From positions 1 through 41,023 of the forward strand of contig JAOASL010000045.1 of the NCBI GenBank assembly GCA_030158675.1: DNA of 41,023 nucleotides. Direction: 5' to 3'. This stretch comes from Burkholderiaceae bacterium. Lineage in GTDB: Bacteria > Pseudomonadota > Gammaproteobacteria > Burkholderiales > Burkholderiaceae_D. Position numbers and translations under genes: made by a program. The notes under the pieces were generated by a model. That model did no database searches. It saw nothing but the letters and a program-made list of their open reading frames with translations, and was not told where the DNA came from. Within the stretch, counting starts at the first letter, position 1; each line of letters begins with the position of its first letter. Positions 13,878 through 19,038 of the stretch are shown in pieces.

Positions 13878-14951
13878 TTACTTCACCGCCCCTGCGCTGG
13901 CGACCACCGGCGTTGTCGCCGGCGCAGCCGTGGCAGTCTCGGCGCCCACGATGGCCGCCAGCTCCGGATAGCTCTTCAGCATCGGGAAGCCGTACAGCGG
14001 CTTGTAAGCGCCCTGGTGGCAGGTCGCGCAGCTGATCTTTGCGACATCGCCGCCGGCCCCTTTGCGCTCCGGCGGGAAGGTACCCGTCAGTGGCACCATG
14101 TACGCATTGTTCACGTCACGCGACATGCGGATGCCGTGATACGCGGTCATGCGCTGCGGCGGGCTGGTTTCCCAGTTCTGGAACGCGCGGGTGTTGTGGC
14201 AGTAGGTGCAGTTCACGCCCAGCGAATTCGACATGTGCGTCATCAGTCCGTAAGTCCACTCCGCCTGCTTGACCGAAGCACGGTTCCCGGACGGCAGCGC
14301 CGTCGGTCCGTTGACGCGGATCGGCTTGTCTTCCAGCAGGAAAGGCGTCAGCGGATCGGTCGGCAGCGACGACAGCCCAACCAGCTTGCCCGGCTGGTTC
14401 TGCCCGGCCAGGTCGCCGAGGAAGTCGGCCTTCTTGTCCTGTTCCTTGGGCGTGAACCAGACCTGCTGCGGCACCGGATTGCCGCGGTGGCAGGTGTAGC
14501 AGGTCACGCCCGTATTGGCCACGTGCGACTGCCAGTTGCCATTGATGTGACGGGTCATCTCGATCATCTTGCGGGCGACGGTCTTGGTGTACTTGCTGTC
14601 GTCCGCGAAATTCTGCGGATTGTGGCAGTACGCACAGCCTTCTTTCGGCGATACCCAGGCCGTCATTGCCGTCATCAGGCCAATGAACTGCGCCGACGAC
14701 ACATCGCCCAGCACCTTCACGTTCTGGAACGAGTCTTTTGCGCGCGGACCGTCGGCTGATGCCGGCGGCGGTGCGGCCGGCGCGGTGTTCAGCGCATCCT
14801 GTTTGGCCAGCTGGCGCGGGTTGTATACCTCCACCATGCCGGTGCCGCGGAAGCCATGCTGCACGCTCTCCATCGGCGGCCGCTCGCAACCGGCCAGCAG
14901 TGTGCCGCCGAGTAGGAGCAGCGCGGCGGTTTTCAGGATTCGGCGGTTCAT
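13878..14951 (-). CDS. pufC: Tetraheme cytochrome c subunit of the reaction centre, PufC
   Basis: A 357-residue periplasmic lipoprotein. The signal peptide ends in a lipobox LLAGC (lipid-modified Cys22). Four c-type heme sites are present: CAYCH (106-110), CYTCH (151-155), CTYCH (248-252) and CATCH (308-312). PufC re-reduces the photo-oxidised special pair with electrons from soluble carriers. The Ala/Thr/Val-rich tail after residue 335 is likely flexible. The start overlaps the pufM stop (ATGA). A longer upstream frame is excluded because the lipoprotein signal begins at 14951. Confidence 0.97.
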
Positions 14952-15925
14952 GGCTTGGCTCCCTGCAGGGTGGCGGGGTCGATCACATCGCCCCACACAT
15001 GCGGATAAGGGGGGGCAACGCCATGCTTGACGGCCCACAGATACCAGTTATCGACCACCGTGCCGGTCAGCAGGATGCCGATGCCGCCCACCAGCGGGCA
15101 CAGCACGGCGAACCACCAGGCCCAGCGGTGAATCGATTCCATGGTCGCGTTGAATCCCATTGTCCAGCGCCAGAACAGTGCGGCACGCTCGGTCGCGGTG
15201 CCGCGGTCGACGATCTGCTCGATCTCGCGCTCGCCGCCGTAACGGCCCACCGCCAGAATGGTCGCGCCGTGCATCGCGAACAGCAGCGCCGAGCCATACA
15301 GGAAGGCGATCGACAGTGCATGGAAGGGGTTGTAGAACAGGTTGCCGTAACGCAGAGAGAACGCCGCGGTCCAGTCCAGGTGCGAGAAAATTCCGAACGG
15401 TACGGCCTCGGCCCAGCTGCCCATCAGCACCGGCCGGATCAGGCCGAGCACCAGGAACAGCCAGATCGCCGCAGCGAACGCCCACGCCACATGCGTGCCC
15501 ATCTTCAGCGCGCGCGCGCGCCGGTACACGTTGGCCCACCACAGCAGCACTGAAATGGTCAGGAACAGACCACAAATTTGCCACCAGCCGCCCTGATTCA
15601 AGGGCGCGAATTTCAGGCCATTGCCCGGCGCCGGCGGATCGAGCGACAGCCAGAACAGCAGGCGCACGAACTGCACCGGATCCCAGTTCACCGACGCCAG
15701 CATGTTCATGCCGATGATGGTGAAGGCGAAGGTGCCGAACATCAGCGACATCGTGCCCAGCACGCCAAGGTAGATCGGCCCGATCTGCGCGTTGCCGATG
15801 CGGCCGGCGAGATGCCACAAAAAGGGCTGGCCACTGCGCGACAGCGCCGGACGGTGCTGCGGCACACCGTCGTGCACGGGACCGACGACCTGCACGCTGG
15901 TGAAGAGGTTTTGGTATTCAGCCAT
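14948..15925 (-). CDS. pufM: Photosynthetic reaction centre M subunit
   Basis: A 325-residue, five-helix core subunit. Ligands match the Rhodobacter sphaeroides numbering exactly: His182 (accessory Bchl region), His202 (special pair), and His219, Glu234 and His266 (non-heme iron); Trp252 lies at the QA site. The C-terminal extension beyond residue 305 ([13 protein letters not shown]) is typical of species with a PufC cytochrome. ATG at 15925 follows AAGGAG, ten bases past pufL. Confidence 0.98.
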
Positions 15926-15935
15926 CGTGCGCTCC

Positions 15936-16763
15936 TTAACGGTTCCAGATCGGCATGTTCAGCCACCAGCTCCACCACTCCGGCCAGCCACGACTCCAGA
16001 AGGGCCCGGACAGCACGATGCAAAGCGCAGAGAACAGTACTGCCGCCAGGGCAAGAAACAGGCCGAGGCGGTGAATGCCAAGCGTGCCGACCGAGTAGCC
16101 GATCAGGTCACGGAAATAGGTGTCTTCATGGTCCGGCGTCTTCACCGTCTCGCCCTTCGGCGGATTGGTGGCCGACAGCACCAGGCCGCCGTGCATCGAC
16201 AGCGCCAGAGCGGTCGCGAAGAAGAACGAGATCGCGATCATGTGCGCCGGGTTGTAGTGGAAGTGCAGGTACTGGTAGCCGACGTTCGACACCCAGTCGA
16301 GGTGGCTAAAGATCCCGTACGGGAAGCCGTGGCCCCAGGCGCCCATCAGCACCGGTCGCACCACATTCAGCGTCACATACGCCAGGATCGCGACTGAGAA
16401 CGCGAACGGCACATGCAACCCCATACCCAGCTTGCGGCAGATCTCTACTTCGCGCAGCGCCCACGAACCAAAGGCGCCGATCGCGCAGACCGTGATCAGC
16501 TGCCACAACCCGCCCTGCAACAGCGGCGCCATGCGCAGGCCGTATGACAGATCCGGCGGCGCGATGCTGATCTGCCAGAGGTTCCAGGTTGGCCCCTGCG
16601 AAGCGCCCCACAAAATAAGTGCGGTGCCGAGGAAGCTGAAGAAGATAGTGGTAACGCCGAAAAAACCAACGTAGAACGGACCGATCCAGAAATCGAACAG
16701 GTCCCCTCCGAGCAGAGTGCCCCCACGTACACGGTATTTTTTTTCAAAACTCAACATGGCCAT
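15936..16763 (-). CDS. pufL: Photosynthetic reaction centre L subunit
   Basis: A 275-residue, five-helix subunit. It has His154 and His174 (Bchl ligands), His191 and His231 (iron ligands), and Glu213/Asp214 of the QB proton pathway, each one residue later than in Rhodobacter sphaeroides. The N-terminus, [20 protein letters not shown], is typical. ATG at 16763 has AGGAGG upstream; a second ATG two codons later is possible. It follows pufA after a 107-base spacer containing hairpins. Confidence 0.98.
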
Positions 16764-16870: not shown

Positions 16871-17044
16871 TTACTTTGGCATCGGTGCGTTCTGTGCCGT
16901 CGGTGCGCCGTGCGGGCCGTCGAGCCAATTGAACTTGTTCGTCGACAGCAGGATGAGGTGAATCATCGCCGCGAGGCCGAACAGAAAAATCCCCTGAACC
17001 ACCATGGCTCGCAAAGGATCGTAAAGGCGCCATATTCTCCACAT
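16871..17044 (-). CDS. pufA: LH1 antenna alpha polypeptide
   Basis: A 57-residue single-helix light-harvesting protein. The N-terminus, [13 protein letters not shown], is classic LH1 alpha. The Bchl ligand is His29 within [11 protein letters not shown], with Trp40 eleven residues after it (FNWLDG). The Pro/Ala-rich tail is cytosol-distal and short. ATG at 17044 has GGAG eight bases upstream, and the frame is open further back but unrelated there. Unusually, it is separated from pufB by a 73-codon gene. Confidence 0.96.
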
Positions 17045-17055
17045 GGTCCTGTCTC

Positions 17056-17277
17056 CTAAAGTGTGTGCGACATGAATGAATACACTGCGGCCTGCACGCT
17101 TCCGAACAGGGAACGGCAGTTCTCGGTGCCTGGCAGCCAGCTGCGCCAAGGCATTCGGGTCAGCGAACCGACCAGCGCAATGGCGAGCACGACCGTAAAG
17201 CCGAGCACATAGATGAGCCGGAAGGTGACAGTTTCGTCAGCCCACTGGCGTTCCTGCTTCAGTTGAATGTTGACCAT
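17056..17277 (-). CDS. Unrecognised 73-residue single-helix protein between pufB and pufA
   Basis: A small basic-acidic N-terminus ([17 protein letters not shown]) leads into one predicted membrane helix at about 19-40 ([19 protein letters not shown]), then a region rich in Trp, Arg and Gly with PWRSWLPG, and a mildly hydrophobic end ([13 protein letters not shown]). No His occurs in the helix, so it is not an antenna polypeptide. A strong ribosome site (AAAGGAA, six bases before ATG 17277) and tight spacing to pufA (11 bases) argue that it is translated. It might be a diverged PufQ-like factor or an LH1-associated subunit with PufX-like architecture; neither is shown by sequence. I do not recognise the family. 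Confidence 0.8.
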
Positions 17278-17308
17278 AGCGATTCCTTTCGTTAACGGCT
17301 ATCCGAGA

Positions 17309-17455
17309 TCAGGTAATCCAGGGACGCCATGCCCATACAAGAATGTGGGCCACCACGGCGATTGCCGTGAAGCCGACCAATCCCTGCATGTAGTACGCAT
17401 GGAATTCCTGAGCCTCATCATCGGACAGGCCGGAAATGCTTTTCCTATCAGCCAT
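17309..17455 (-). CDS. pufB: LH1 antenna beta polypeptide
   Basis: A 48-residue antenna protein. It has the acidic N-terminus, [13 protein letters not shown] with His19, then the Bchl ligand His37 in [12 protein letters not shown], ending WIT. The His-18 residues-His spacing and C-terminal WRPW are LH1 beta hallmarks. ATG at 17455 has AAGGAG eight bases upstream. It is the first gene of the puf set and is preceded by a hairpin; transcription probably also reads in from bchCXYZ. Confidence 0.96.
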
Positions 17456-17565: not shown

Positions 17566-19038
17566 TCATGCGGCCTCCCCCATGCGCAGCGATGCGCGTG
17601 CTTTCGTCACCCGCTCCGCCGACACGCTGTCTTCACCGGCGCGGCGCGCCTCGCGCTCGGCGCGGTCGCGAATCTGCTTGGCCGCACTGATCTGCACCAG
17701 CACCGGCTCGGCGGCGACCAGGTCGGTCAGCAGCTCGCTGGCGGCGTCATCCCAGGCCACCTGCGCCAGCGCGCGGGCCGGCGTCGGGTCGACGCGATCC
17801 ATCTCCGTGCCCAGTGGCAGAATGTTGAACAGCGCATCGAACAGGCAGTTGCAAAATTCCTGGATCAGGTAGGTCGCACCCGCATAGCCCATGAAGGGCG
17901 TGCCGGTATGGCGGCGAATGATCGCGCCCGGGAACGACGCCGGAATGAATGAAGCCTTCATCGGTGAGGCCGCGCCACCCTCGGCCAGATACATGCGCTC
18001 GTTGTAGCTGCCGTACATCACCAGCGGCGGCTTCTCGCGCAGCAGCGTACGGATCGCCTCGCTGTCGGTCTTTTCGCCGGGCTTGCGCGCAATCGCGAAA
18101 TTGCATGGCAGCCCCATCTCGTCCTCGAGGAAGTTACGCAGGCCACGGGTATAGGTTTCGCTGGCCACCACCGCAAAGGTCGCCGTGCCGAAGAAATCTT
18201 GCGTGACCGAGCGCCACAAGTCCCACACCGGCTTGATGGTGGTGTGCTTCTCGCGCTCGATAAAGGGCTCGGGGTCGAGCTGCAGCAGCTCGCCGAGCTT
18301 GCGCAGGAATTTGGTCGTGCTGTGCAGGCCGATCGGCGCCTGCAGCCAGGGCCGCTCGAGCGCCTCGCACAGCAGCTGGCCGAACTCGCGATACAGACAG
18401 ATGTTCACATCGGCGTCGGCCAGCTTCTGTACGTCGGCCAGATGGCTGCCCAGCGGGAACACCATATTTACTTCGGCACCGATGCCCTCGACCAGCCGGC
18501 GAATCTCGGCCAGGTCGCTCGGCATGTTGAAGGTGCCGTAACAGGGACCAATCAGGTTCACGCGCGGCTTCTCGCCGGGCGCGCGGTCGGCGAACGGCTT
18601 GCGCTCGGGCACATGGCGCAGACCGTATTCACTCCACAGCCACAGCATTGCGCGGTTCGCGCACTGCCACTGGTCTTCGTCGATGGTACGCGGCAAAAAG
18701 CGCAGGATGCCGGTACCCTCGGGCGTCACGCCGCCGCCGATCATCTCGGCGATCGAGCCGGTGACGACCACCGCCGGCAGGTCCGGATCGAGCGTACCGT
18801 GCGCGCGCTTCATCGCACCTTCAGTGCCTTCGCGGCCCAGCTGTTCTTCGGCCAGGCCGGTGACCACGATCGGCAATTCATGCGGCGGCAAGGCATCGGT
18901 GTAATGCAGTACCGAGGTGACTGGCAGGTTCTCGCAGCCGACCGGGCCGTCGATGATGACCTGCAGTCCCTTGACCGCGGTGAAGACATACACCGCACCC
19001 CAATAGCCACCCGCGCGGTCGTGGTCGATGACGTTCAT
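17566..19038 (-). CDS. bchZ: Chlorophyllide a reductase subunit Z
   Basis: A 490-residue nitrogenase-like catalytic subunit. With BchY it binds the chlorin and, powered by BchX, reduces the ring B C7-C8 bond to make the bacteriochlorin. The N-terminal [12 protein letters not shown] and the stretch [15 protein letters not shown] are family marks. A Cys-bearing FCNCLF motif lies near residue 425. Overlap with bchY is four bases (ATGA). The C-terminal 50 residues are charged, as in other BchZ proteins. Confidence 0.97.

Follow-up and report, generated by a model that had tools for sequence, protein, structure and literature searches.

A ligand-less LH1 beta paralogue between pufB and pufA in Burkholderiales and its possible kinship with PufQ

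What is the 73-codon gene that separates pufB from pufA in the puf operon of a Burkholderiaceae bacterium? On the minus strand of the window, that is, the whole 41,023-nucleotide stretch that was analysed, the genes run in the order bchZ, pufB, the 73-codon gene (hereafter the gap gene), pufA, pufL, pufM and pufC. The original prediction described a gene dividing pufB and pufA, 31 bases after the former and 11 before the latter, with an AAAGGAA ribosome-binding site, and these details were all recovered. The features of the locus are as follows.

17566–19038, minus strand: bchZ, called from its ORF and a match of the stretch to annotated bchZ on named plasmids
17309–17455, minus strand: pufB, a short LH1 beta with the ligand His (PF00556; NF040862, E 1e-23)
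17283–17289, minus strand: ribosome-binding site AAAGGAA of the gap gene, called from sequence (anti-SD energy −5.6 kcal/mol)
17056–17277, minus strand: gap gene, ATG start, 73 codons plus stop, a very probable LH1 beta paralogue, His-less at the ligand site (basis: ORF, homology, conserved place and selection)
17161–17217, minus strand: predicted transmembrane helix of the gap protein, residues 21–39 (hydropathy window)
17059–17148, minus strand: C-terminal part of the gap protein from W44 (WRSWLPG plus tail), the most constrained part (dN/dS 0.061 in residues 43–73)
16871–17044, minus strand: pufA, LH1 alpha (PF00556; NF040861, E 4.9e-18)
15936–16763, minus strand: pufL (PF00124, E 6.3e-99)
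14948–15925, minus strand: pufM (PF00124 match at 15017–15775)
13878–14951, minus strand: pufC, tetrahaem cytochrome (PF02276, E 1.9e-141 for the longer ORF that runs from 15038)

The interval between bchZ and pufB measures 110 bases, so that a pufQ-like gene cannot fit there. The pufC start was chosen by visual inspection, at a signal resembling that of a lipoprotein (LLAGC); if pufC begins at this site, its ATG and the pufM stop overlap by four bases (14948–14951). The gap gene is single-copy in its own genome, where the second, weak match (E 0.2) was pufB; only pufB and pufA (16871–17455) matched PF00556 in this genome, so no LH2 pair was found. Searches of Pfam and NCBIfam gave no match for the gap protein at E up to 10. 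RNA structures predicted for the pufB–gap gene interval, the region upstream of pufB and the pufA–pufL interval were no better than those of shuffled sequences. The anti-SD energies of pufB and pufA were −8.6 and −7.3 kcal/mol, versus −5.6 kcal/mol for the gap gene, and across loci the gap-gene site was weaker than that of pufB in 51 of 78 and than that of pufA in 47 of 78, with overlapping ranges; ribosome-site strength was thus rejected as a guide to stoichiometry.

Sixteen of 20 congeners have a clear match to the gap gene (41–79% identity, E at most 6.2e-18), and the median dN/dS over the 16 congeneric genes was 0.158 (89 usable of 120 pairs, after dropping those whose dS reached 2 or could not be computed), bearing out the claim that the gene is real and not a chance ORF. 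The ratio was 0.442 in the N-terminus (54 usable pairs), 0.189 in the helix (87) and 0.061 in the C-terminal part, residues 43–73 (91). The gap gene is under purifying selection, which is strongest on the tail. Among the 21 genomes of the genus, including the one under study, a reaction-centre match was obtained in 17 and both reaction-centre genes in 16, and all these 16 carried the gap gene, while the seventeenth (G011) was left unjudged because its contig stops within pufM. Two genomes of the genus showed unusual arrangements. In G016 (L009/L036), one of the 16 genomes with both reaction-centre genes, the assembled pufB is missing its middle, either truly or by an assembly fault, alongside the bchZ end and an intact gap gene and pufA. 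G013 (L018/L258), which is 71% complete and without a reaction-centre match, carries on contig G013:C45 a diverged gene of the gap type. Its ribosome site is good, neither pufB nor pufA adjoins it, and its neighbours look by eye like acsF and phytoene synthase.

The distribution of the gap gene in the order was assessed in 399 genomes, 47 of which had reaction-centre genes. Stretches upstream of pufL were obtained for 44 of these (pufL was missing or at a contig edge in G178, G212 and G332), and one stretch (G083) stops in pufA, leaving 43 readable phototroph loci, whose arrangement was counted by stop-codon order. Relatives sharing the position, which the original prediction had proposed to look for, were found in 35 of the 43, as well as in Rubrivivax gelatinosus; three other loci had a different ORF at the pufQ position, between bchZ and pufB, and no gap gene, and five had a tailed pufB directly before pufA. 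The gap gene and a pufQ-position ORF co-occurred in none of the 43. A tailed pufB without the gap gene was also present in a genome of the same family as the window (G029, L022). In L153, L154, L158, L162, L164 and L022, pufB has both its His and a gap-like C-terminal tail, with neither the gap gene nor a pufQ-position ORF in the stretch.

A collection of named genomes, which overlaps with the order sample, gave 186 relatives, and in 77 of the best 80 of them the gap gene lay between pufB and pufA; of the remaining three loci, L083 and L036 show only a partial pufB, with its end ahead of the gap gene, and the L054 stretch stops short of pufB. These best 80 included Rubrivivax gelatinosus (L063 and L064, whose gap genes are 52% and 51% identical in the aligned region), R. 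benzoatilyticus, Piscinibacter aquaticus and Aquincola tertiaricarbonis. In five named loci with an apparent double gap gene before pufA, the first gene was pufB; in one of them, L050, the end of this pufB reads disrupted. None of 44 pattern-matched stretches of viral contigs encoded a relative of the gap gene, and of 11 plasmid records matching the pufL–bchZ region none was betaproteobacterial by name.

Genes at this place have been noticed before. For ORF1 and ORF2 of R. gelatinosus, PMC12817894 cites Nagashima et al. 1994. Excerpts of PMC12817894 place ORF1 before pufB and ORF2 before pufA in this operon, both of unknown function, and describe ORF2 as being without His and 10.1–14.5% identical to PufA2, with the conclusion that pufA2 is not derived from ORF2. 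In Roseateles depolymerans, according to the excerpted text of PMC10037100, ORF74 (RS05155) lies between pufB (RS05150) and pufA (RS05160), the three are co-transcribed as the major 1-kb puf RNA, and the strongest reductions in a sigma-factor mutant fall on these three genes. ORF74 is equated with the gap gene by position and length alone, and at that level its reported co-transcription agrees with the co-expression with the antenna genes claimed in the original prediction. An excerpted table of the same paper (PMC10037100, Table 2) also lists a small ORF77, RD2015_RS05175, whose tag falls between the pufM and pufC tags; in the window these two genes abut. In the open-licence literature, no title or abstract start was found that relates the ORF to beta or to PufQ; the beta paralogy of the gap gene and its link to pufQ-position ORFs and PufQ are new here.

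To identify the origin of the gap protein, single-sequence and profile searches were performed. With an E limit of 10, a phmmer search of the PDB with the single protein yielded 11 matches, every one an antenna chain, the best being the tailed LH1 beta chains 8z81, 9m8m and 7xxf (E 5.7e-5 to 1.7e-3). With an E limit of 1, a profile of 60 gap proteins retrieved 40 PDB sequences, again all antenna chains, with a best E of 1.8e-16. With hhalign, the gap profile matched tailed beta at 99.6% (E 4.8e-24) and short beta at 96.5%; an alpha-like origin was rejected, the profile probability to alpha being only 0.70%. The curated PF00556 model did not match the gap protein of the window; with an E limit of 1 it matched seven of 60 relatives, the best value being 0.002. 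Based on these matches, the gap protein is almost certainly an LH1 beta paralogue.

Gap-protein residue 38 aligns with the beta position that we take to be the His ligating the ring bacteriochlorophyll, and by motif alignment it is Ser in the window. None of the 85 tallied loci had His at this position (Q 47, T 14, S 12, A 5, K 3, E 2, I 1, F 1), in accord with the earlier claim that the product has no antenna ligand His; the −18 position was His in three of the 85. As a replacement pigment ligand, Gln was rejected as not general, since it occurs in 47 of 85 loci. The alignments show that the ligand His, as read from the beta register, has been lost and that a conserved C-terminal tail is carried by the gap protein. 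The description of one helix without any His applies to the predicted helix but not to the whole protein, whose sole His stands at position 71, in the C-terminal SHTL. Similarly, the statement that the protein is not an antenna was right about the ligand His but missed the homology to LH1 beta found in the PDB and hhalign searches, and the Trp/Arg-rich PWRSWLPG is present but had not been recognized as the beta WRPW motif plus tail.

A relation to PufQ was evaluated through the small ORFs that occupy the pufQ position. When 369 genomes of the class were searched with the gap profile, such bchZ–pufB ORFs came up beyond the order as well, among them WP_100923003.1 of Candidatus Thiodictyon syntrophicum; PufQ is named in Thiodictyon in the excerpted text of PMC5944118, with a tag that could not be matched to this accession. 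Sixteen pufB stretches of the window's class from outside the order, Thiodictyon included, comprised six with a bchZ–pufB ORF and 10 with none. Alphaproteobacteria were taken as the class of PufQ carriers, in which 16 of 240 genomes had reaction-centre genes and 14 stretches were read, seven with a bchZ–pufB ORF, one with PufQ and six with neither; these counts cover about 2–3 kb around the operon in each stretch, so that genes elsewhere would escape them. The small bchZ–pufB ORFs are mostly unannotated (L185, L186, L191, L195, L236, L239, L244, L245, L247, L251, L253, L254, L257, L144, L152 and L155) and match the profiles of beta, gap or PufQ to different extents; two of them, L245 and L253, match all three.

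For a profile of six pufQ-position ORFs, the match probability was 95% with the gap profile, 97% with tailed beta and 94% with PufQ. The direct match of gap to PufQ was 59%, and that of tailed or short beta to PufQ only about 1%, so the link between beta and PufQ runs via intermediates. Reversed-alignment nulls stayed below 1% for the gap–pufQ-position, pufQ-position–PufQ and gap–PufQ pairs, and below 3% in all pairs but short versus tailed beta, whose 41% means that the null is not clean; the other controls, 38 reaction-centre helix windows and alpha, gave less than 4% and less than 5%, respectively. Further, a PufQ HMM was searched over 11,219 ORFs from the fetched loci and the window, 13 of the 14 PufQ sequences having been in the model. 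At E<0.1 it picked the 14 PufQ, 11 of 117 gap proteins, 5 of 16 pufQ-position ORFs, 0 of 129 beta and 0 of 10,394 others, and at E<1 the corresponding numbers were 14, 27, 7, 0 and 4. Among ORFs from loci fetched as weak PufQ matches, 5 of 549 were picked at E<0.1 and 7 of 549 at E<1.

The curated Pfam model of PufQ (PF05398) did not match the gap protein of the window, nor anything in its genome at E up to 0.01. Below the curated cut-off, it matched one of 60 gap relatives (E 0.015) and two of 10 pufQ-position ORFs (0.02–0.04); it was over the cut-off in 13 of the 398 genomes of a phylum sample, 12 of them from one family. The PufQ relation suggested by the original prediction is therefore supported at profile level through intermediates, but not by the Pfam model, and directly only at 59%.

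The same groups were placed in trees. In a quick tree of 109 rows, the gap proteins formed one clade (SH-aLRT 96), PufQ another (96), and the beta sequences came together (89). For a second tree, six LH2 beta were added, the rows were thinned to 85 over 75 columns, and five pufQ-position rows were left out, for long branches or odd make-up or, in two cases, for greater divergence. In this tree, which has long branches and an unsettled bootstrap, the gap proteins, pufQ-position ORFs and PufQ stood together opposite all pigment-binding beta (94/90), with the gap clade at 99/93 and the pufQ-position ORFs joined with PufQ at 100/96. The AU test rejected none of the alternatives, namely gap with LH1 beta (p 0.236), gap with Burkholderiales tailed beta (p 0.286) and gap with PufQ alone (p 0.134). 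One origin for the gap family, the pufQ-position ORFs and PufQ is the favoured reading of the trees, and a common origin of the gap protein and PufQ is, in our estimation, somewhat probable.

PufQ binds ferrochelatase and controls the haem/bacteriochlorophyll branchpoint, and its tail is predicted to be cytoplasmic, as stated in excerpts of PMC5725709. It is given as absent from Halieaceae/NOR5 and Sphingomonadales in the excerpted texts of PMC3176799 and PMC12654162, and from Rhodothalassium in that of PMC11762602. The best reading of the gap protein, to which we assign about an even chance, is a cryptic PufQ-type, ligand-less beta paralogue that couples pigment supply or assembly to LH1 synthesis. 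The beta-like helix would allow the protein a position next to alpha or beta within the membrane, with no pigment taken at the His site, and the constrained tail would recruit a partner of pigment supply or assembly. The gap protein would act as a PufQ-type coupling factor, matching bacteriochlorophyll delivery to LH1 synthesis where PufQ is said to be absent. In Burkholderiales the gap gene lies between pufB and pufA and would therefore be on the antenna transcript, as reported for Roseateles ORF74. That the protein has a PufQ-type function is itself an evenly balanced proposition. Against it, a beta topology would place the tail in the periplasm, whereas the PufQ tail is predicted to be cytoplasmic, and direct contact with ferrochelatase would require the tail to be cytoplasmic; charge counts did not decide the membrane topology of the gap protein. 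Further, five of the 43 phototrophs of the order, six of the 14 alphaproteobacterial stretches and 10 of the 16 other stretches of the same class showed neither gene, indicating that the function would not be universal.

On a wider scale, and with slightly less than even confidence, PufQ, the gap protein and the bchZ–pufB ORFs may constitute one family that arose from LH1 beta by loss of the pigment ligand, with a cryptic PufQ form in bacteria thought to be PufQ-less, including Rubrivivax gelatinosus, and with the same kind of tail on the antenna beta itself in some Burkholderiales. If this is true, PufQ gains an origin, in a beta antenna that ceased to take pigment at its His site, and an ORF that has had no explanation since 1994 gains a role. 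A conserved PufQ-linked protein within the puf operon of the culturable Rubrivivax would make the point of Chidgey et al. testable.

PufX, PufW, gamma and protein-U are small membrane subunits of RC-LH1. The main rival to the PufQ-type reading is that the gap protein is likewise a structural subunit, its ligand-less beta-like helix ending or interrupting the ring and keeping a quinone gate open as PufX or PufW does, or standing gamma-like beside each alpha/beta pair; gamma and PufX are described as such small subunits in the excerpted text of PMC9640540. The beta homology, the place between pufB and pufA, ribosome sites within the range of those of pufB and pufA, and the presence of ORF74 on the antenna transcript (PMC10037100, excerpts) are all consistent with a ring subunit. 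However, PufX, PufW, gamma and protein-U are all missing among the 11 single-sequence and 40 profile matches in the PDB, one congener has a copy outside the puf operon, and this explanation, which we consider rather unlikely, does not predict the closer tie of the gap protein with pufQ-position ORFs and PufQ. The specific kinship with PufX was rejected for lack of sequence support, as there was neither a Pfam match nor a PufX chain among the PDB matches, and the PufX option of the original prediction gains no support from these searches.

Alternatively, the gap gene could be unrelated to PufQ in origin: a duplication of a tailed pufB specific to Burkholderiales would have produced it, its His would have been lost independently, and it could serve, for example, as an alpha/beta assembly chaperone. 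Tailed beta is the closest profile (99.6%), relatives without the gap gene have a tailed beta, and the AU tests fail to reject such groupings (p 0.236 and 0.286). The tree support of 94/90 for gap proteins with pufQ-position ORFs and PufQ, and the PufQ HMM, which picks gap proteins but none of the 129 beta at E<1, argue against a separate duplicate and make it improbable. A chance ORF or a decaying, functionless pufB copy, for which the small size and the absence of a curated family match could speak, is scarcely credible, as it is already contradicted by the place and length kept across the order and the dN/dS of 0.158.

Compared with known systems, the gap gene occupies the same place as R. 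gelatinosus ORF2 and Roseateles ORF74, with no difference in kind. The gap protein shares length class, helix, WRxW motif and tail register with the tailed LH1 beta chains 8z81, 9m8m and 7xxf, but these have the ligand His where the gap protein has Ser. Similar to PufX, PufW, gamma and protein-U, it is a small membrane protein, and none of these is among its PDB matches; pufX lies downstream of pufM (excerpts of PMC9640540), whereas the gap gene lies between pufB and pufA. The bchZ–pufB ORFs such as WP_100923003.1 resemble the gap protein in their beta-like helix and tail, whereas they are placed before pufB and are much more divergent from beta. PufQ and the gap protein are alike in length, the single helix, the conserved C-terminus and membership of the puf operon, but the PufQ gene precedes pufB while the gap gene comes after it.
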